A stretch of 64,000 nt of DNA from assembly GCF_009662475.1 (NCBI RefSeq), contig NZ_CP045571.1, positions 3,036,501 through 3,100,500 of the forward strand, in the 5' to 3' direction. The notes beneath the pieces were generated by a model. That model saw only the letters and a program-made list of their open reading frames with translations, made no database searches and was not told the origin of the DNA. The DNA comes from Acidithiobacillus thiooxidans ATCC 19377. GTDB lineage: Bacteria; Pseudomonadota; Gammaproteobacteria; Acidithiobacillales; Acidithiobacillaceae. This document shows positions 54,458 through 64,000 of this stretch, in pieces (the stretch's first letter is position 1; the number at the start of each line of letters is the position of its first letter). Made by a program: the position numbers and the translations under genes.

Positions 54458-55867
54458 TTAGTGATCTTCAATACCCAGTTCTTTCAGCTTGCGGGTCAGG
54501 GTATTACGTCCCCAACCCAATTTCTGGGCGGCATCCTGCTTGTGACCACGGGTATGCTGGAGTGCTGCTTCCAGCATACAACGCTCAAACTGGGGCTGAA
54601 TTTTATCGAGCAGGGATTCTTCTCCGCTGGCCAGGCGTTGGCGCACCAGTGTCCCCAGTTGCAGCCGCCAATCCTGGAGGATCGGTGCCTCTGTCAGTTC
54701 CGCTAGCGGCGCCGCTACGCTCATCTCCGGAGGCAAATCAGTGATCTGCACCTCACTGGTAGGAGCCATGACCGTAACCCAGCGACAAACATTCTCAAGT
54801 TGCCGGACATTGCCCGGCCAGTGCCATTCGGTGAAAGCCATTTCGGCAGCCGGGCTCAGCAGCTTGCGCTCGACATCCAGCTGATCTGCACTGCGACGCA
54901 GGAAATGCCGCGCCAGCCTCGGAATATCTTCGCGGCGCTCGCGCAGCGGCGGCAAGTGAATATGGATGACATTCAGACGATGGTAGAGATCTTCGCGAAA
55001 ACTGCCGTCGCGGACCTTGGCTTCCAGATTCTGGTGGGTGGCTGCAAGCACCCGCACATCAGCACGCAAAGGGGCATGCCCCCCCACCCGGTAAAAAGTA
55101 CCGTCCGAGAGTACCCGCAGCAGGCGGGTTTGCAAAGCAGCCGGCATATCTCCTATTTCATCCAGAAACAGGGTACCCCCGGAGGCTTGCTCAAAACGCC
55201 CCTGGCGGGTTTGTACCGCTCCGGTAAATGCGCCCTTTTCATGCCCGAACAGTTCGGATTCAAGCAGTTCGGCGGGAATAGCGGCGGTATTAATAGCAAT
55301 AAAAGGCCCTCTGGCTCGTGGACTGTGACGATGCAGGGCGCTGGCCACCAGCTCTTTACCGGCTCCTGATTCACCGGTAATAAGCACATTGATCTGTGAT
55401 CGGGACAAGCGTCCGATCGCTCGAAACACCTCCTGCATCGCTGGCGCTTCACCAATCATTTCCGCCGGGTCCGCATCCTCCGTCTGGCTACTGGCTGTCG
55501 GTTCTTCCTGACTGCCCAAAGCACGGCGAACCAGATTGATGGCCTCGTCCATATCAAAAGGTTTGGGTAAATACTCAAAAGCCCCACTTTGGAAAGCCGA
55601 AACGGCATTATCGAGGTCCGAATGGGCAGTCATGACAATAACCGGGAGCTTGGGCCAACGCGCCTGCACTTCCCTCAGAAAAGCCAGACCGTCCAGACCG
55701 GGCATGCGTAAGTCCGTGACAATGGCATTGGGTTGATCACGGCCAAGCGCCCGCAAGGCACTATCTGCATCGGCAAAACTCCGGGAAGGAATTTCCGCCT
55801 GGGCCAGAGCTTTTTCCAGTACCCAGCGAATAGACGGATCATCGTCAATAATCCAGACCTGTTTCAT
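54458..55867 (-). CDS. ntrC: Nitrogen regulation response regulator NtrC
   Basis: A 469-residue sigma-54 activator. The receiver domain has IIDDDPSIR and the phospho-Asp at ~52 in TDLRMPG. The AAA+ domain has Walker A GESGAGKE (~168), the sigma-54 contact GAFTGA and [10 protein letters not shown]. The C-terminal Fis-type HTH ([23 protein letters not shown]) matches the NtrC class. It overlaps ntrB by 4 nt. With NtrB it senses nitrogen state through PII. Confidence 0.95.
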
Positions 55868-56949
55868 TGCGGCTCCTCACGATGTTGGCCAAGAGGCAGG
55901 GAGACCGAAAAAATAGTTTCCCCCGGTCGGGAATGACAGTGCACAACGCCACCATGTCCGCGCACCAGACCCTGGGCAATAGCCAGACCCATACCCATGC
56001 CTGCCGCACGACTGGTCACCAGCGGCAGAAAAATGCGGGGCAAAAGGTCCTCAGGAATCCCGGGGCCGCTATCGACAACATCTACCCGCAGGGCGAGACG
56101 AAATTTCTGATGGAGCAAGGTGACATAGCGATCCACCCGGGTCCGAATCAGGATGGTGCCATGGCGATCCAGCGCCTGCTGGGCATTACGCAGCAAATTG
56201 AGGAAAACCTGTACCAGCTGCTCCTGATCCGCGTAAACTTCCGGAATGGAAAGGTCATAATCGAAACGCAACGCAATACCTGTGGGCAGCTCAGTCTGGA
56301 GGAGACGTCGCACATGCTCCAGCACCTGATGAATATTTACGCTGGCAAAAATCGGGCGACTGCGTGGTCCCTGTAAACGATCCACCAGATGATGCAGACG
56401 GTCAACTTCATGGAGTATGACCCGGGTATAATCCTTCAATTCAGGACGTTGCAATTCTCTCTCAAGAAGTTGGGTGGCGCCGCGCAATCCCCCCAGAGGA
56501 TTTTTGATTTCATGAGCCAGGCCGCGCAACATTTCCTGAGCTGCTCCGTAAATCCGATCCTGCATTTCTTCTTCTGCATGCCGTGCGGGTAGTTCCATCG
56601 GTCGCATTTCGATAATCAAATGACCATCGGCCAAAGGCGTCACCACCAGATCCACCACCGCATGGCTGCCATCATGGAGCTGCAATGGCAAGGCGCGACG
56701 CAGTATGGTCCCATTCAAATCGGTGGCATCGGCAAACAGCGCCGCAAAACGATCTTCTCCGACAATACTGCATAAGGCTGCAACGGTTTGGCCGCGTGCC
56801 TGATGCTGACTGATGCGCAGGAGATTTTCTGCCGCCGGATTCATGAAACGCAGCTTGCTTTGGGCGTCCAGAGTCATTACCGCTGACTCCAGGGCATCCA
56901 GTACTGCGTATTCCGTCAATGCTGTTTTTGTGATTTTGCGCTGCACCAT
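55864..56949 (-). CDS. ntrB: Nitrogen regulation histidine kinase NtrB
   Basis: A 361-residue soluble kinase: an N-terminal PAS domain (YAVLDALESAVMTLDAQSKL), the phospho-acceptor His (~147) in RGLAHEIKNPLGGLRGA, and an ATPase domain with NLLRNAQQAL, VDVVDSGPGIP and GMGMGLAIAQGLVRGHGG. Good GGAG site before the ATG. It is preceded by a possible sigma-54 promoter and an NtrC-like site, suggesting self-control. Confidence 0.95.
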   Translation of the reverse strand: MVQRKITKTALTEYAVLDALESAVMTLDAQSKLRFMNPAAENLLRISQHQARGQTVAALCSIVGEDRFAALFADATDLNGTILRRALPLQLHDGSHAVVDLVVTPLADGHLIIEMRPMELPARHAEEEMQDRIYGAAQEMLRGLAHEIKNPLGGLRGATQLLERELQRPELKDYTRVILHEVDRLHHLVDRLQGPRSRPIFASVNIHQVLEHVRRLLQTELPTGIALRFDYDLSIPEVYADQEQLVQVFLNLLRNAQQALDRHGTILIRTRVDRYVTLLHQKFRLALRVDVVDSGPGIPEDLLPRIFLPLVTSRAAGMGMGLAIAQGLVRGHGGVVHCHSRPGETIFSVSLPLGQHREEPQ

Positions 56950-57001
56950 GCAAGCTCCAAGTGGGTAACCGCCTCTGGAGGCGCCTTCATAAATTTAACC
57001 A

Positions 57002-57017
57002 AGCAAAAAGCACACCA
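57002..57017 (-). promoter_or_regulatory. Possible sigma-54 promoter for ntrBC
   Basis: On the minus strand TGGTGTG-N4-TTGCT has GG and GC exactly 10 nt apart, as sigma-54 needs; TGG and TTGCT match consensus, while the CAC of the -24 box does not. Start would be near 56991, 42 nt before ntrB. An NtrC-like site lies ~150 bp upstream of it. Confidence 0.5.
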
Positions 57018-57166
57018 AACCAGTCTCTGGCAGCCTGGAAATTGCCCTGCGTACGCATACAACCCTTCAGATGGGTACCAGCTCTAGTCAGTAACAGCGA
57101 AGTCTTCAATCAAAATGACCGCACATCATCCAGAGCAACGGACGCAACCCGGATAGTGCAACGACC

Positions 57167-57182
57167 GCACCATAATAGTGCA
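57167..57182. promoter_or_regulatory. NtrC-binding-like site between ntrB and the Anbu gene
   Basis: GCACCATAATAGTGCA; the reverse complement TGCACTATTATGGTGC closely matches the E. coli glnA enhancer TGCACTATATTGGTGCA. It is placed to act on ntrBC to the left and possibly on the Anbu gene to the right. Confidence 0.65.
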
Positions 57183-57296
57183 CAACCTCTGACCACCACA
57201 ACGCCGGTAAATCATGCTCATGGTGAACAGGCTTCCAAAACACCAAAATATCAGCGACTATAACTACACAATGCTGCATGCCTACAGGGATAATTC

Positions 57297-58046
57297 ATGA
57301 CTTACTGCCTCACTGCCCACGTTTCCGGGGGGCTGGTTTTCTGTTCTGATTCTCGCACCAATGCAGGCACGGACAATGTCAGTATTTACTCAAAAATGCA
57401 TAATTTTTGCTGGCCCGGTGATCGCTTTCTCTGTCTGCTTTCAGCCGGCAATCTGGCCACCACTCAGGGAGTCGTCAAACGCCTGCAGCAGGATATGGAC
57501 CAAAATGCCGAAATCCATCTGCTGAACCTTTCCAGCATGGCAGAAGCTGCAGATTACATTGGCCTGATTAACGCCGAAATCCAGCGTAATCAGGTCTGTC
57601 GTGATACGGCCAACACCAATTTTGAAGCCACTTTCATTTTGGGTGGTCAGATCGGCAGCGAAGTGCCTGTCACCTACATGATTTATCCTCAGGGAAACTA
57701 CATTCACGAATCAGCTGATCACCCCTTTTTACAAATCGGCGAAATCAAATATGGCAAACCCATACTCGACCGCGTGATCAAACCGGAACTGTCCCTGGAA
57801 GCCACCGCCCGCTGCGCGCTGGTTTCTATGAATTCCACCATGCGTAGCAATGTTACGGTCGGCCCGCCGGTTGAGTTACTCATCTATGAAACCAATTCAC
57901 TGCAGATGGGCCGCTATCTTTCGCTGACCGAAGAAGATCGTTTTTATCGGAATCTTGGTGAACGCTGGAGTCAGGGACTCTTGCAGGCATTGGACGGTCT
58001 TCCACCTTTTGACTGGGAAACTCCGACGGCTCTGCCGCCGCTATGA
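57297..58046 (+). CDS. Anbu-type proteasome-like peptidase
   Basis: A 249-residue Ntn-hydrolase of the bacterial proteasome-like (Anbu/COG3484) family. After Met removal, Thr1 (MTYCLTAHVSGG) would be the nucleophile. Asp17 in FCSDSRTNAG and Lys32 in SIYSKMHNF correspond to the catalytic Asp17 and Lys33 of HslV. FLCLLSAGNLATTQ and FEATFILGGQIGSE are family motifs. Homologues form open-ring assemblies and typically sit beside ATP-grasp, alpha-E and transglutaminase genes, as here. Substrate unknown. The gene has its own upstream region; AGGGAT precedes the ATG. Confidence 0.9.
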   Translation: MTYCLTAHVSGGLVFCSDSRTNAGTDNVSIYSKMHNFCWPGDRFLCLLSAGNLATTQGVVKRLQQDMDQNAEIHLLNLSSMAEAADYIGLINAEIQRNQVCRDTANTNFEATFILGGQIGSEVPVTYMIYPQGNYIHESADHPFLQIGEIKYGKPILDRVIKPELSLEATARCALVSMNSTMRSNVTVGPPVELLIYETNSLQMGRYLSLTEEDRFYRNLGERWSQGLLQALDGLPPFDWETPTALPPL

Positions 58047-58065
58047 AGGAAAAGCCAGTCGTAAC

Positions 58066-58101
58066 GCACCATATTGGTGCATATCGCACCAATATGGTAC
58101 A
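58066..58101. promoter_or_regulatory. Tandem NtrC-binding-like enhancer sites
   Basis: GCACCATATTGGTGCA (58066-58081) is an inverted repeat differing from the E. coli glnA NtrC site by a single internal base over these 16 bp. GCACCAATATGGTACA follows at 58086-58101, starting 20 bp later, about two helical turns, as cooperative NtrC dimers prefer. They lie 105-140 bp upstream of the sigma-54 promoter. Confidence 0.8.
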
Positions 58102-58205
58102 ATCGGTTCACCGACATTTTGGCAAGCCGCTTTAGATAAAGCCTTCGTGCAACCAAGCTACTGGAGCAAATTCCACTCATCTTTCATATAGGTAATCAAC
58201 CTGAC

Positions 58206-58221
58206 TGGCACGAGCTTTGCT
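58206..58221 (+). promoter_or_regulatory. Sigma-54 promoter of the ATP-grasp operon
   Basis: TGGCACG-AGCT-TTGCT matches the -24/-12 consensus at every defined position, with GG (58207-58208) and GC (58219-58220) 10 nt apart. The start would be near 58232, giving a ~75-nt leader to the ATG at 58308. Confidence 0.88.
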
Positions 58222-58307
58222 TCGTTATTTGAGTTGAACGCGATAATACCCAAGCAGCTTCAACACAGAAGCATGGGCGAGAATCTTGCGACGAGGAGAC
58301 AAAGCAG

Positions 58308-59771
58308 ATGGACTGGCTCAGAACCCATTATCAACAGCAGATTACCCATGACGAACTGGTGGATGAAAATGCCCGACCGCGCCGGGCGGCTGCCCCCCTG
58401 TTCAATTATCTGAACACTCTGGACAGCAGCGAGTTGCAGGCGCGTCGTCAGGCTGCAGATGCCTCCATTCTCGCCATGGGAATCACTTTTACCGTATATA
58501 GTGAAGCTGGCAATATTGATCGTGCCTGGCCCTTTGACATTATCCCGAGAATCCTTTCCAGCAGTGAATGGACGCGCATTGAAGAGGGACTCAAACAGCG
58601 CCTGCAGGCCCTCAACCTGTTCATTGATGACCTTTACAATGATCAACGTATTGTCGCTGATGGCGTTTTTCCGGCCGAAGTACTGGAGGGTTCGCGCAAT
58701 TTTCGGGATGCTTGTCGGGGCGTTCATCCCCCCTTCGGGGTCTGGGCACACATCTGCGGAAGTGATCTAGTGCGCGATGCCGACGGGACCATTTATGTGC
58801 TCGAAGATAATCTTCGCGTGCCCTCCGGCGTCTCTTACATGCTCGAAAACCGCCAGATCATGAAGCGGCTTTTCCCGGAATTATTCAAATCATCCATTAT
58901 CCGACCCGTGGACGACTACCCCAATCGCCTGTACGAGACCCTGGCGGCCTTGTCTCCGCGCCCGGAAGAAAAGCCCGTGCTCGCTGTACTTACCCCCGGC
59001 ATCTACAATTCCGCTTATTTCGAACATAGTTATTTAGCCCAGCAGATGGGCGCTTATCTTGCTGAAGGGCCGGATTTTTATGTCAGCAAGGAAGATATTG
59101 TTTATTTACGCACCATTTCCGGATTACAACGGGTCGATGTCATTTACCGCCGCATTGATGATGATTACCTGGACCCGGAAGTATTTTTTCCGGATTCCGT
59201 ACTTGGCATCCCCGGACTACTCCGCGCCTGGCGACGCGGGAATGTGGCCATTGCCAACGCACCCGGTGCCGGGGTAGCCGATGACAAGGTCGTCTACGCC
59301 TTTGTTCCGGAAATCATTCGCTACTATCTGGATGCCGAACCCATTATTCCCAATGTTCCGACTTATTTGTGCATGCGCGATGCAGATCGGGATTATGTCC
59401 TCAGCCATCTTGCCGAACTGGTGGTTAAACCGGCCAATGAGTCCGGTGGTTATGGCATGCTGATCGGCCCCCGCGCCAGTCAGGCTGAACGCGACCGTTT
59501 TGCCGAACTGATCCAAGCCAACCCGCGCAACTACATTGCCCAGCCAACCCTGAATATTTCCACCGCACCCACACTGGTAGATGATCATCTGGAGGCACGG
59601 CACCTCGACCTGCGTCCCTTTATTTTGCAGGCGGATAAATTGTATGTAACCACTGGGGGATTGACCCGGGTGGCGATGCAGCCCGGATCACTGGTAGTGA
59701 ATAGCTCCCAGGGTGGCGGCAGCAAAGACACCTGGATTGTTGATGAGGAGGCACCATGCTTTCCCGAGTAG
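58308..59771 (+). CDS. Circularly permuted ATP-grasp protein
   Basis: A 487-residue protein of the circularly permuted type-2 ATP-grasp family, thought to form amide bonds on peptides. Family segments are GITFTVYSEAGNIDRAWPFDIIPRI, the ATP-site acidic motif YVLEDNLRVPSGVSYMLENR, RVDVIYRRIDDDYLDPEVF and VVKPANESGGYGMLIGP. GAGGAG precedes the ATG. It overlaps the alpha-E gene by 16 nt and is the first gene after the sigma-54 promoter. Confidence 0.93.
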   Translation: MDWLRTHYQQQITHDELVDENARPRRAAAPLFNYLNTLDSSELQARRQAADASILAMGITFTVYSEAGNIDRAWPFDIIPRILSSSEWTRIEEGLKQRLQALNLFIDDLYNDQRIVADGVFPAEVLEGSRNFRDACRGVHPPFGVWAHICGSDLVRDADGTIYVLEDNLRVPSGVSYMLENRQIMKRLFPELFKSSIIRPVDDYPNRLYETLAALSPRPEEKPVLAVLTPGIYNSAYFEHSYLAQQMGAYLAEGPDFYVSKEDIVYLRTISGLQRVDVIYRRIDDDYLDPEVFFPDSVLGIPGLLRAWRRGNVAIANAPGAGVADDKVVYAFVPEIIRYYLDAEPIIPNVPTYLCMRDADRDYVLSHLAELVVKPANESGGYGMLIGPRASQAERDRFAELIQANPRNYIAQPTLNISTAPTLVDDHLEARHLDLRPFILQADKLYVTTGGLTRVAMQPGSLVVNSSQGGGSKDTWIVDEEAPCFPE

Positions 59772-60742
59772 CTGAAAATCTGTACTGGATGGCGCGCTAC
59801 CTGGAGCGCACGGAAGACGTAGCCCGTCTGATTAATGCCACCACCCTGATGCTGCTGGATCTGCCCCCTGGAGCTTATTTTGGCTGGGATATCCTGTTGC
59901 AGGTCACCGGTGATGCCACGCTTTATACAGAGCTTTATGGTGCCCCCGAAGAAAACCGCATCATGCGTTTTTTGATTGCCGACGAGCGCAATCCGAATTC
60001 GGTCATGGCTGCCATTCATCAGGCTCGGGAAAACTGCCGGACATTTCGTGACTTGCTGCCTGGCGAGTTCTGGGAGCGCCTCAACACTCTGTTTCTGTAC
60101 GTCCGCGATCAGGCCGTTTCCGGAGCAGATAGCCGCCATGCCCGTTACGCTTTTCTCAACGAAGTCATTGCCCGACGCCACGCCCTGGTAGGTTTGCTGA
60201 TCAGCAGCATGAGTCAGGATAACGTTTACCAGTTCATCAAGCTGGGACGCAATATGGAACGGGCGGATATGACCACGCGCATTGTCGATGTCACCAGCGC
60301 TGTGATTTTACCCCAGGATCAGGGCCTGCAGAAAACAGCGGGCAGCAGCTTGTGGATTGGGGTTCTGAAATCACTCAGTGCCTTTGAAATGTATCGTCGC
60401 CATATTTCCGTGCAAGTGCGCAGCAATCAGGTAGTAGACTATCTGCTCAAGGACGGCAAGTTCCCGCGCAGCATGAAATATTGCCTGGGAGAAATGGAAG
60501 TGGCATTAGCCTATCTGCCCAATGCCGGAACCCCTGCAGAAGCCGTTCGTAGGGCCCGACGGCGCCTCGATCAACTGAAATTGAGTGACCTCCGCCCGGA
60601 CCTGCTCCATGAATATCTGGATCAGGCCCAGAGAGATCTCGCCATGGTCCATCGGACCATTCAGGGTACTTATTTCGCCAGGGAAGATAGTGGTTCGGAA
60701 AATGCTCTGAATGGACTCCACTTGCAGGTTGCTCAAGCTTAA
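59756..60742 (+). CDS. Alpha-E domain protein
   Basis: A 328-residue all-helical protein of the alpha-E (DUF403) family, starting MLSRVAENLYWMARYLERTEDVARLINA, the family hallmark. Other matches are ARENCRTFRDLLPGEFWERLN and FIKLGRNMERADMTTRIVDV. It is always found with the ATP-grasp partner, sometimes fused to it. Its start lies inside the end of the ATP-grasp gene, so the two are translationally coupled. Biochemical role unproven. Confidence 0.93.
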   Translation: MLSRVAENLYWMARYLERTEDVARLINATTLMLLDLPPGAYFGWDILLQVTGDATLYTELYGAPEENRIMRFLIADERNPNSVMAAIHQARENCRTFRDLLPGEFWERLNTLFLYVRDQAVSGADSRHARYAFLNEVIARRHALVGLLISSMSQDNVYQFIKLGRNMERADMTTRIVDVTSAVILPQDQGLQKTAGSSLWIGVLKSLSAFEMYRRHISVQVRSNQVVDYLLKDGKFPRSMKYCLGEMEVALAYLPNAGTPAEAVRRARRRLDQLKLSDLRPDLLHEYLDQAQRDLAMVHRTIQGTYFAREDSGSENALNGLHLQVAQA

Positions 60743-60774: not shown

Positions 60775-63700
60775 ATGGGTATTCATGTCGTTCTGCGTCA
60801 TCAGACCGAGTATGACTTTGATCGTTTGGTGGAAATCCATCCTCACGTACTGCGTCTGCGGCCGGCGCCGCACTGTCGTACTCCGATTCTTGCGTATTCA
60901 CTGGAAGTCAGCCCCGAAAAACATTTCCTCAACTGGCAGCAGGATCCCTTCGGGAATTATCAGGCCCGTCTGGTTTTTCCTGAACGCGCCAAGTCCCTCA
61001 AATTCAGCATCGAAGTCATCGCCGATCTGAGCGTGATTGACCCTTTCGATTTTTTTATTGAAGAGCAGGCAGAACGCTGGCCGTTCCGTTACGAACCGGC
61101 ATTATATAAAGAGCTGGCTCCCTTCCTGGAAAAAGAAAAAGCCGGACGCCTACTGCAACAAATGTTGCTGGGTATCATGAAACGCAAACAGCGGACCATT
61201 GATTTTCTAGTCGGCATCAATCAGCAGTTACAAACTGCCATCGCTTACAACCTGCGCATGGAAGTCGGCGTCCAGACTCCTGAAGAAACCCTGAAAAAAG
61301 CCAGCGGTTCCTGTCGGGACAGCGCCTGGCTGCTGGTACAGCTTTTACGACATCTGGGTCTGGCTGCCCGCTTTGTTTCCGGATATCTGGTTCAGTTGGT
61401 GGCCGATCAGGCGCCCCTCGAAGGTCCCTCCGGCCCCGCCCAGGATTTCACTGACCTGCACGCCTGGGTGGAAGTGTACATCCCCGGAGCAGGCTGGATT
61501 GGTATGGATCCAACTTCCGGTCTGTTTGCCAGTGAAGGGCATATCCCCCTGGCCTGTACGCCGCACTACCAAAGTGCCGCGCCGATCAGCGGTGCCACCG
61601 GAAAATGTGAGGTTACCTTTCATTTTTCCAATCAGGTCACCCGCTTGCCGGAAACACCCCGGGTCACCAAACCCTATACCGAGAGCCAGTGGGAAGAAGT
61701 CATGGTGCTTGGACAGATTGTCGATGACCGCCTGCAGGCAGCAGATGTCCGCCTGACCATGGGCGGGGAGCCCACTTTTGTGGCTACGGAAGCTGTGGAT
61801 GATCCACAATGGAATCTGGAGGCACTGGGCAAACACAAACGCGAACGTGCTGAAATCCTTTCGGAACGCCTGCGCAAGCATTTTGCACAAGGGGCTTTAC
61901 GGCATACGGGTGAAGGCAAATGGTATCCGGGCGAACCCCTGCCCAGATGGGCCTTAGGCTTATACTGGCGCAAAGATGGCCTGCCGGTGTGGCAAAATCC
62001 GGCATTGCTGGCGGATCCACTTAAGGATTACAGCTGGAAACCGGAAGATCTCCATCATTTCGCCTGTCAGCTCTGCGAACAATTGCAGGTAGACAGCACC
62101 CGGCTCATTCCTGCCTACGAAGATGCCTGGCATGTCCTTCATCAAGAGGGCCGGGTTCCAGTCAACATTGACCTCAGTACCCATCGCCTTGATGACCCTC
62201 TGGAGCGGCAGGCCCTCATCGAAAAGCTTCAGGCCGGTCTGGACCACCCCGTGGGTTGGGTTCTGCCTTTGGCCTGGGAATGGAATCAACAATGCTGGTA
62301 CTCCGCGACCTGGGTATTTCGCAGCGGACGCCTGATTCTTATTCCCGGCGACTCAGCTCTGGGGATGCGTCTGCCCCTCGATAGCCTGCCGTGGATGGTC
62401 GACCCGCACAAAAAATGGCAACCGGAAACGGACCCCTTTGCGCCCTTACCGCCCTTACCAGATATGCATGCCAAGCCGACGCCGGGGAGCACCGCTAAAT
62501 CCCAAACAGCGAAAAGCCCAGCCAGCAACAAAGCCCCCAGCTGGGAGGAAATTCCCCACACAGCAGTCACCCTGGAAATTCGCCAAGGCTGTCTGTATTG
62601 CTTTTTCCCACCCCTGCAGGTGACTGAACATTATCTGCGACTACTCAGCGCCATTGAAGCCACTGCGGCTGCCCTGAAAATGCCGGTCGTCATTGAAGGT
62701 TACCCGCCGCCCAGTGATCCGCGCCTGGAAAAACTGCTGGTCACACCGGACCCCGGCGTTATTGAGGTGAACATTCACCCTTCTTCGAGCTGGCCGGAAA
62801 TGGTCGAAAAAACCACCCTGCTTTACGAAGAAGCCCATGCCTGCCGCCTGACCGCCGAAAAATTCATGCTGGATGGCCGCCACACCGGCACCGGCGGAGG
62901 CAATCACATGACGCTGGGCGGCGCTACCCCCGGCGACAGCCCTTTCCTGCGCCGTCCGGATTTGTTGCAAAGTCTCATTACCTATTGGCAGCATCATCCG
63001 GCTCTTTCCTATTTTTTCAGCGGGATGTTTATTGGCCCGACCAGCCAGTCACCCCGGGTGGACGAAGCCCGTCATGAAGCACTTTATGAACTGGAAATTG
63101 CCTTTACCCAGGTACCTCCAGGCAATGTCGTGCAACCCTGGCTGGTAGATCGCCTGTTTCGTAATCTTCTGGTCGACATTACCGGAAATACTCATCGCGC
63201 AGAAATCTGCATTGACAAACTCTACTCACCGACCGGTTCCGCCGGACGCCAAGGACTGGTAGAACTGCGTGCCTTTGAAATGCCGCCTCATGCGCGCATG
63301 AGCCTGGTCCAGCAGTTGCTGGTCCGCAGTCTGATTTTACGCTTTTGGGAAGATCCTTATCGTCATGCTCTGATTCGTTGGGGAACGACGCTTCATGATC
63401 GCTTCATGCTGCCCCACTATGTTTGGGAAGATTTGCGCGAGGTCTGTACGGACCTGCAAAACCACGGGATCCTCTTTCAACTGGAATGGCTGACACCCTT
63501 TTCAGAATTTCGCTTTCCAGAGCATGGTCATGTGCAGATTGGTGATGTACAAATAGAACTGCGTGCCGCCATTGAGCCCTGGCATGTTCTCGGTGAGGAA
63601 GTCACCGGAAGTGGCACCGCCCGCTACGTGGATTCGTCCATTGAACGCCTGCAGGTCAAGGTCACGGGCATGACTCCCGGACGACATATACTGGCCTGTA

Positions 63701-64000
63701 ATGGGCGGCGTGTCCCGCTGCAGACAACCCGAGCCCCGGATACCCAGGTGGCAGGGGTGCGTTATCGTGCCTGGCAGCCGCCATCTGCCCTGCACCCGAC
63801 CATTCCGGTGCATTCCCCACTGACATTTGATCTGATCGACACCTGGAATGGACGTAGCATCGGCGGCTGTACCTACCATGTCATGCATCCGGGTGGACGC
63901 AATTCGGAAGTATTCCCCGTCAACGCCTGGGAAGCCGAGGCGCGGCGCCAATCCCGCTTTACCACGACCGGTCACAGCCAACCCGAATCAACCCCTCCTA
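60775..64000 (+). CDS. Large transglutaminase-like/DUF2126 protein (3' end outside window)
   Basis: At least 1075 residues are visible. Residues 1-~90 form the bacterial transglutaminase N-terminal domain ([22 protein letters not shown]). The transglutaminase core has the triad Cys in [18 protein letters not shown] (~183), His in [12 protein letters not shown] (~226) and Asp in GMDPTSG (~243). From ~320 a DUF2126 region runs to the edge ([56 protein letters not shown]). A Pro/Lys/Ala linker lies near 560-590. It probably cleaves or cross-links peptide amide bonds made or used by the neighbours. GAGGAT precedes the ATG. Confidence 0.93.
   Translation, partial: [1075 protein letters not shown]

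Follow-up and report, generated by a model that had tools for sequence, protein, structure and literature searches.

The window, i.e. the whole 64-kb stretch of Acidithiobacillus thiooxidans ATCC 19377 DNA analysed here, ends in an operon whose first gene encodes a circularly permuted ATP-grasp protein, followed by an overlapping Alpha-E gene and by a transglutaminase-like/DUF2126 gene, the frame of which extends beyond the window end to L026:1665 (Table 1). The ATP-grasp protein was 100% identical to that of Acidithiobacillus sp. HP-2 and 99% identical to that of A. sulfurivorans, its nearest named relatives. An anbu gene of the same orientation lies upstream, 261 bp from the ATP-grasp gene, and all four families (Anbu, ATP-grasp, Alpha-E and transglutaminase) are thus together at the locus. 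The Anbu gene matched no Pfam family at E 0.001; its best solved relatives were Anbu-type proteins (E 2.7e-74 to 5.2e-55, including 5nyj/5nyf). On the opposite strand ntrB, starting approximately 1.1 kb upstream of the NtrC sites described below, is followed by ntrC. The ntrC product scored above the cut-off in two curated models, its C-terminal part aligned to the NtrC DNA-binding domain 1ntc (E 3.7e-18), and it carries the GAFTGA sequence, which has a role in touching sigma-54. The genome (3,415,726 bp, single contig) has a single copy of rpoN and 19 PF00158 matches, 14 of them strong including NtrC itself, i.e. 13 other strong matches to sigma-54 activators. The upstream Anbu gene and the nearby ntrBC genes were absent from the preliminary description of this DNA.

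Table 1. Genes and sequence elements around the ATP-grasp operon control region (window positions)
Feature	Position	Strand	Remarks
ntrC (sigma-54 activator)	54458-55867	-	TIGR01818, 776 bits (cut-off 558.6)
ntrB (nitrogen sensor kinase)	55864-56949	-	NF008293, 298 bits (cut-off 240)
Weak sigma-54-like box TGGTGTGCTTTTTGCT	57002-57017	-	52 bp before ntrB; 2-3 mismatches
Third NtrC site GCACCATAATAGTGC	57167-57181	+	Between ntrB and anbu; identical in 12/12 Acidithiobacillus
Anbu (proteasome-like Ntn-hydrolase) gene	57297-58046	+	Upstream of control region; PDB 5loy (Designed Anbu Protein), E 2.7e-74
NtrC site 1 GCACCATATTGGTGC	58066-58080	+	Perfect palindrome arms; GCAC invariant in 12 Acidithiobacillus sequences
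NtrC site 2 GCACCAATATGGTAC	58086-58100	+	One mismatch; GCAC invariant in 12 sequences
Sigma-54 -24/-12 box TGGCACGAGCTTTGCT	58206-58221	+	0 mismatches; TGGC and TTGC invariant in 12 sequences
Small stem-loop GCGAG-AAT-CTTGC	58277-58289	+	Predicted 5' leader, directly 5' of ATP-grasp ribosome-binding site
Circularly permuted ATP-grasp gene	58308-59771	+	First gene of operon; PF14403, E 1.1e-162
Alpha-E gene	59756-60742	+	PF04168, E 7.2e-84; overlaps ATP-grasp gene
Transglutaminase-like/DUF2126 gene	60775-63999	+	PF09899, PF08379, PF01841

The preliminary description had placed two NtrC-like sites 20 bp apart upstream of a TGGCACG-N4-TTGCT promoter before the ATP-grasp operon, and this arrangement was recovered: the palindromes have a centre-to-centre spacing of 20 bp and lie 105-140 bp upstream of the sigma-54 box, which, as had been claimed, departs at no defined base from the consensus used for scoring (TGGCACGN4TTGCW). 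The region has the features of its promoter class, namely GG and GC at fixed spacing in the -24/-12 box, NtrC palindromes approximately 100-200 bp upstream, and both NtrC and RpoN encoded in the genome. The Anbu gene lies outside the predicted sigma-54 transcription unit, upstream of it.

The TGGCACGAGCTTTGCT box was the sole sigma-54 match without mismatch in the window. Matches with up to 3 mismatches (134, compared with 127.9 +/- 11.8 in shuffled sequences) and loose NtrC-like matches (33 compared with 38.8 +/- 6.1) were not above chance, which leaves the near-perfect matches, read in their context, as the informative ones. Across the genome there were 6 perfect sigma-54 boxes, 44 boxes with at most 1 mismatch (16 for the reversed pattern), and 15 NtrC sites (AT-centred GCACCW5GGTGC, at most 1 mismatch) against 0 for the reversed pattern. 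The same NtrC search over 17 genomes of the genus returned 215 sites and 34 reversed ones, with a small margin in some single genomes (8 vs 4; 9 vs 7 in G283). The expectation of a perfect same-strand sigma-54 box within 150 bp was 0.00013 per NtrC site. Of the genomic NtrC sites outside the island described below, five were taken as chance occurrences: L141, L142, L145 and L146 fall within frames that match Pfam families (glycine decarboxylase, AIR-synthase-like, secretion F and cation efflux), and L006 within a frame that is TolB-like by eye; L144 is flanked by a topoisomerase gene and by a frame with no Pfam match, and L143 is at a frame end. The frame of a cytochrome bd oxidase subunit I is preceded by a perfect sigma-54 box whose start lies 67 bp upstream (L115; G000:C1:3141581).

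The preliminary description had proposed a scan of related genomes for the same sites, and in Acidithiobacillus this gave a clear outcome. In 12 aligned anbu-ATP-grasp intergenic stretches, with a mean column identity of 42%, mean identity was 0.858 in the NtrC arms and 0.931 in the sigma-54 box, compared with 0.417 in the linker. Invariance extended, beyond the motif cores marked in Table 1, to the start codon and to part of the ribosome-binding site. A. ferrivorans, ferruginosus, ferriphilus, ferrianus and clean429 retain site 2 and have a degraded site 1. The best sigma-54 match had at most 2 mismatches in 10 of the 11 Acidithiobacillus loci, and in these the best NtrC match up to 220 bp upstream of the box had at most 2 mismatches in 10/10 and at most 1 in 9/10; the reversed NtrC pattern had at least 3 mismatches in 10/10, and the downstream stretch reached 2 mismatches in 2/10. 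The eleventh locus (L039), which has a perfect NtrC palindrome but a box with 3 mismatches, was excluded from this count, and L075 and L077 (ATP-grasp protein identity 74-75%) were counted outside the Acidithiobacillus group. As the distance from the start of the nearest good NtrC site to the box varies from 68 to 202 bp between Acidithiobacillus loci, mere common descent of an unselected stretch seems an unlikely cause of this conservation.

Two other elements of the region were compared in the same 12 sequences. The GCACCATAATAGTGC site is identical in all of them, and a weak minus-strand box is present 47-52 bp before ntrB in 12/12, which suggests that ntrBC might be autoregulated. The small stem-loop in the predicted leader had 95% of cells paired, a value reached in 4 of 500 shuffles. 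In four relatives it reads GCGTG-N3-CACGC, with one pair swapped on both sides, from A-U to U-A. The number of changed pairs (1, compared with 1.0 in shuffles) points to what was probably a single event, and it would be weak evidence for the stem-loop. No Rfam match was obtained at E 1 for 56900-58400, stem-loop included.

The search was extended to other loci encoding the ATP-grasp family. PF14403 gave 110 matches from 79 genomes, of which 80 from 74 genomes formed the class-wide set after exclusion of the window's own match, two very long frames (G084 and G258) and 27 lower-scoring matches, mostly frames of approximately 860 residues or fragments, with one frame of 487 residues (G176). Within 300 bp upstream of the ATP-grasp gene, 52 of the nearest 80 loci had a box with at most 2 mismatches (2 with the reversed pattern, 9 on the opposite strand, 2.9 in shuffles), as did 31 of the 80 class-wide matches (0, 6 and 2.0, respectively). 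The rows of these sets are not independent, their start codons were script-chosen, and the nearest 80 are skewed to close relatives. The 28 nearest loci with no box within 2 mismatches, 9 of them from Marinobacter and 8 from Thioalkalivibrio, and the corresponding 49 class-wide loci were excluded from the NtrC count. An NtrC site with at most 1 mismatch and at most 220 bp upstream of the box, present in 9 of the 10 Acidithiobacillus loci (0 reversed), was found in 7 of the 42 other near loci having the box (0 reversed, shuffles 0.4) and in 8 of 31 class-wide loci having it (1 reversed, shuffles 0.6). Judged from these comparisons, both elements are conserved beyond background, clearly so in Acidithiobacillus, with the NtrC part patchy outside the genus.

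Gene order varies among the relatives, with anbu often divergent or downstream, and the box before the ATP-grasp gene persists in many of them. Many beta-proteobacterial loci have a near-perfect box approximately 44-52 bp before this gene and no visible NtrC site. A common activator palindrome was looked for in 33 mostly beta-proteobacterial loci (31 after removal of near-duplicates); exact 5-bp dyads were common to at most 2 loci, a number not above that in shuffles, in a crude test that was anchored on a distant 3-mismatch box in L041 and L067. Eight loci (L044, L047, L052, L058, L061, L063, L072 and L074) share the perfect box TGGCACGSTCCTTGCA, which lies 44-46 bp ahead of the ATP-grasp gene, have a divergent anbu in 8/8 cases and lack any NtrC match with 1 mismatch or fewer; they may be served by a different activator or by another kind of NtrC site. 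In a metagenome-assembled genome of a sister lineage (L077:2270-8372), an ammonium transporter gene and a porin relative directly precede anbu and the ATP-grasp operon; linkage to ammonium-uptake genes is thus retained with a different order.

The region 58066-58221 is, with a probability of roughly 0.93, an NtrC-activated sigma-54 promoter of the ATP-grasp/Alpha-E/transglutaminase-DUF2126 operon. When nitrogen is short, NtrB would phosphorylate NtrC, and phospho-NtrC would occupy the two palindromes next to each other, at a distance of two helical turns. The bound activator would then contact the sigma-54 polymerase at the -24/-12 box through DNA looping over approximately 105 bp, and transcription of the operon is predicted to start near 58232. 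We infer the binding, the looping, the start site and the nitrogen response in this organism from the DNA sequence. Within a starvation programme, the operon enzymes would most likely catalyse ligation of the peptide or amide type, with hydrolysis of peptides added by Anbu. A role of their products in storing, recycling or scavenging nitrogen, as suggested in the preliminary description, is a hypothesis. Control by nitrogen limitation is well supported, because the sites are kept amid diverged DNA, the same palindrome stands before amtB and before porin-glnK-amtB, and ntrBC is adjacent.

Three other explanations were weighed against an NtrC-activated promoter. The two palindromes begin 19 bp past the anbu stop codon and can pair with each other in the window (a 64-nt fold of -23.6 kcal/mol, z -4.9), as would be expected if they formed one RNA hairpin, a terminator or processing element, with an accidental likeness to NtrC sites. 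An intrinsic terminator, which would have a hairpin followed by a T-run and kept in relatives, was not supported for the tandem sites, since no terminator-like site was found on the plus strand at the palindromes. Cross-pairing reaches 14/15 in just 2 of the 12 sequences and 7-11/15 in the other 10, while the GCAC of each site is invariant, and the amtB promoter has the same palindrome with no second NtrC-like match, which together make the hairpin explanation extremely improbable. It is likewise very improbable, if slightly less so, that the promoter depends on sigma-54 and is driven by an activator other than NtrC, for example NtrX. The other PF00158 proteins encoded in the genome, and the many beta-proteobacterial loci that keep the box with no recognisable NtrC site, would be in line with such a regulator, but the tandem palindromes here are near-perfect and the same as those before amtB and porin-glnK-amtB, the ntrBC genes are adjacent, and an orthologous cluster was lowered in an ntrC mutant of B. 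cenocepacia (PMC5491218).

The third explanation, in which a sigma-70 promoter accounts for most operon transcription by read-through from anbu and the sigma-54 promoter is a minor addition, is unlikely, if less so than the other two. The anbu gene is on the same strand across the 261-bp gap, a sigma-70-like match lies directly before it (57265-57294; 4 such matches were found compared with 1.6 +/- 1.4 in shuffles), and no sigma-54 box for anbu was present within 3 mismatches in 11 of the 12 Acidithiobacillus sequences. In addition, the promoter fragment of P. putida PP_2685 (Anbu) was reported as constitutive (PMC8050072). Against read-through, the intergenic NtrC/sigma-54 sites are kept while the remainder diverges, and many relatives with anbu divergent or downstream still have the box before the ATP-grasp gene.

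Control by NtrC and sigma-54 was also compared with the literature. Anbu is reported to be up-regulated in nitrogen-limited P. putida, and according to the same sources neither a substrate nor a product has been established for Anbu and its ATP-grasp/Alpha-E/transglutaminase partners (PMC5666114, PMC6376114). The P. putida cluster PP_2685-2688 likewise comprises Anbu, transglutaminase and ATP-grasp genes and is induced with poor nitrogen (PMC8050072, PMC7801951). On nitrate compared with ammonium, PP_2685 (Anbu) and PP_2688 (ATP-grasp) were up by log2 4.44 and 3.99, and the PP_2688 promoter fragment rose 3.7-fold on nitrogen depletion, the glnK fragment, like that of PP_2685, being constitutive (PMC8050072). 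The cluster was assigned to NtrB/NtrC in PMC7801951, which cites Hervas 2009. That study differs from the picture here in that PP_2685 hardly responded in the wild type (1.12-fold) and in that PP_2686, PP_2687 and PP_2688 were still induced by nitrogen limitation in the rpoN mutant (14.16-, 16.02- and 19.61-fold), as were the urt genes (PMC7801951); such data suggest either that dependence on sigma-54 is not strict or that the mutant was incomplete. The cluster I35_5080-83 of B. cenocepacia H111, likewise with DUF404/407, DUF403 and transglutaminase genes, was among the common sigma-54 and NtrC targets and fell by log2 -8.2, -9.4, -9.4 and -6.0 in the ntrC mutant under nitrogen limitation, where a SpoVR-like gene was also down (log2 -3.0); it differs in that no Anbu is named, the word proteasome having 0 occurrences in the available text (PMC5491218). 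The link to nitrogen limitation drawn in the preliminary description is therefore upheld by conservation, by the amtB-type palindromes and by B. cenocepacia and P. putida, with the P. putida rpoN mutant as contrary evidence. It is not new, having been published for other bacteria (PMC5491218, PMC8050072, PMC7801951). No description of this control region was found among the titles and abstract openings listed on NtrC with Anbu or the operon's families, on Anbu and nitrogen, and on NtrC in Acidithiobacillus. One paper, concerning an inactive transglutaminase of vesicle formation, was set aside (PMC12096838).

The operon lies in a wider cluster of NtrC sites. Six of the 15 genomic sites are within 15 kb (genome 3093667-3108736): one in the ntrB/anbu intergenic stretch, two before the ATP-grasp gene, and one each before prkA, amtB and porin-glnK-amtB. 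Such clustering occurred in 0 of 200,000 random placements, with a window size that was chosen post hoc, and it was likewise not reached when each tandem pair was treated as a single site (5 of 13 in the island). In another complete Acidithiobacillus genome (G276), 4 of 11 NtrC sites were within 14 kb (17 of 200,000 placements, window size again post hoc). The sites before prkA, amtB and porin-glnK-amtB each have a 2-mismatch sigma-54-like box downstream. The 20-bp tandem recurs upstream of porin-glnK-amtB, with 2 mismatches in its first site, and upstream of a porin-like frame at 155576/155596 (likeness by eye). This porin-like gene (L028:3672-6158; G000:C1 near 155576) also has a 2-mismatch sigma-54-like box and seems to be split by a minus-strand frame resembling a transposase, both by eye.

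Compared with the glnK-amtB-type promoters of the same genome, which share the palindrome, the 20-bp tandem in the case of porin-glnK-amtB and a -24/-12-like box downstream, the promoter described here drives an operon of uncertain biochemistry and not ammonium uptake. The island also holds prkA, yeaH (DUF444) and spoVR, the same three genes as the E. coli starvation genes yeaG (prkA)-yeaH-spoVR; in the island, prkA is preceded by an NtrC site and a box. To our knowledge, the E. coli genes do not neighbour ntrBC or Anbu. Expression of yeaG in nitrogen starvation has been reported in E. coli (PMC4664914). Directly past the window end, the intergenic stretch between a minus-strand dCache gene and prkA (L026:2613-3214) contains a perfect sigma-54 box on the minus strand (L026:2683-2698), a 1-mismatch box on the plus strand (2771), an NtrC site (2991) and the 2-mismatch box before prkA (3100). 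One run of genes at L026:5319-12790 comprises amtB, yeaH (DUF444), spoVR, a BBP2-type porin gene, glnK and a second amtB. The porin-glnK gap is 26 bp with no box between, hinting that the porin might use the glnK-amtB promoter and serve nitrogen uptake.

The island is maintained across the genus. The ATP-grasp family was present in 17/17 genomes, with a full prkA on the same contig within 15 kb of its gene in 15/17 (G279 has no full prkA, and in G286 the two genes are on different contigs) and an ammonium transporter match on the same contig within 16 kb in 14/17 (on other contigs in G279, G285 and G286); ntrB and ntrC precede anbu in 11/11 Acidithiobacillus loci. Control of amtB by NtrB/NtrC had been predicted in A. 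ferrooxidans and A. thiooxidans in a paper whose available text has 0 occurrences of proteasome or transglutaminase (PMC2607301). A 2025 study of 43 Acidithiobacillia genomes stated that there are no nitrogen-metabolism genes near ntrBC, and ATP-grasp, proteasome, transglutaminase and amtB are absent from its main text as available (PMC12194929); the island disagrees with that statement. The new part of this work is the genus-wide conserved 15-kb nitrogen-starvation island, with explicit sites and their conservation.

A broader proposal joins two ideas: that the island would act as one NtrC-controlled unit (ntrBC, Anbu, the peptide-ligase operon, PrkA-YeaH-SpoVR, two ammonium transporters and PII), and that Anbu and the ATP-grasp system would be a starvation machine ligating and later breaking peptides to hold or recycle nitrogen, its original job being nitrogen homeostasis and not protein quality control. 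Taken together these are possible but doubtful. For the promoter itself, an NtrC/sigma-54 type kept in a genus that belongs to a class of bacteria of importance in bioleaching, and detectable in other proteobacteria, would indicate that the product of this system should be sought under nitrogen starvation.
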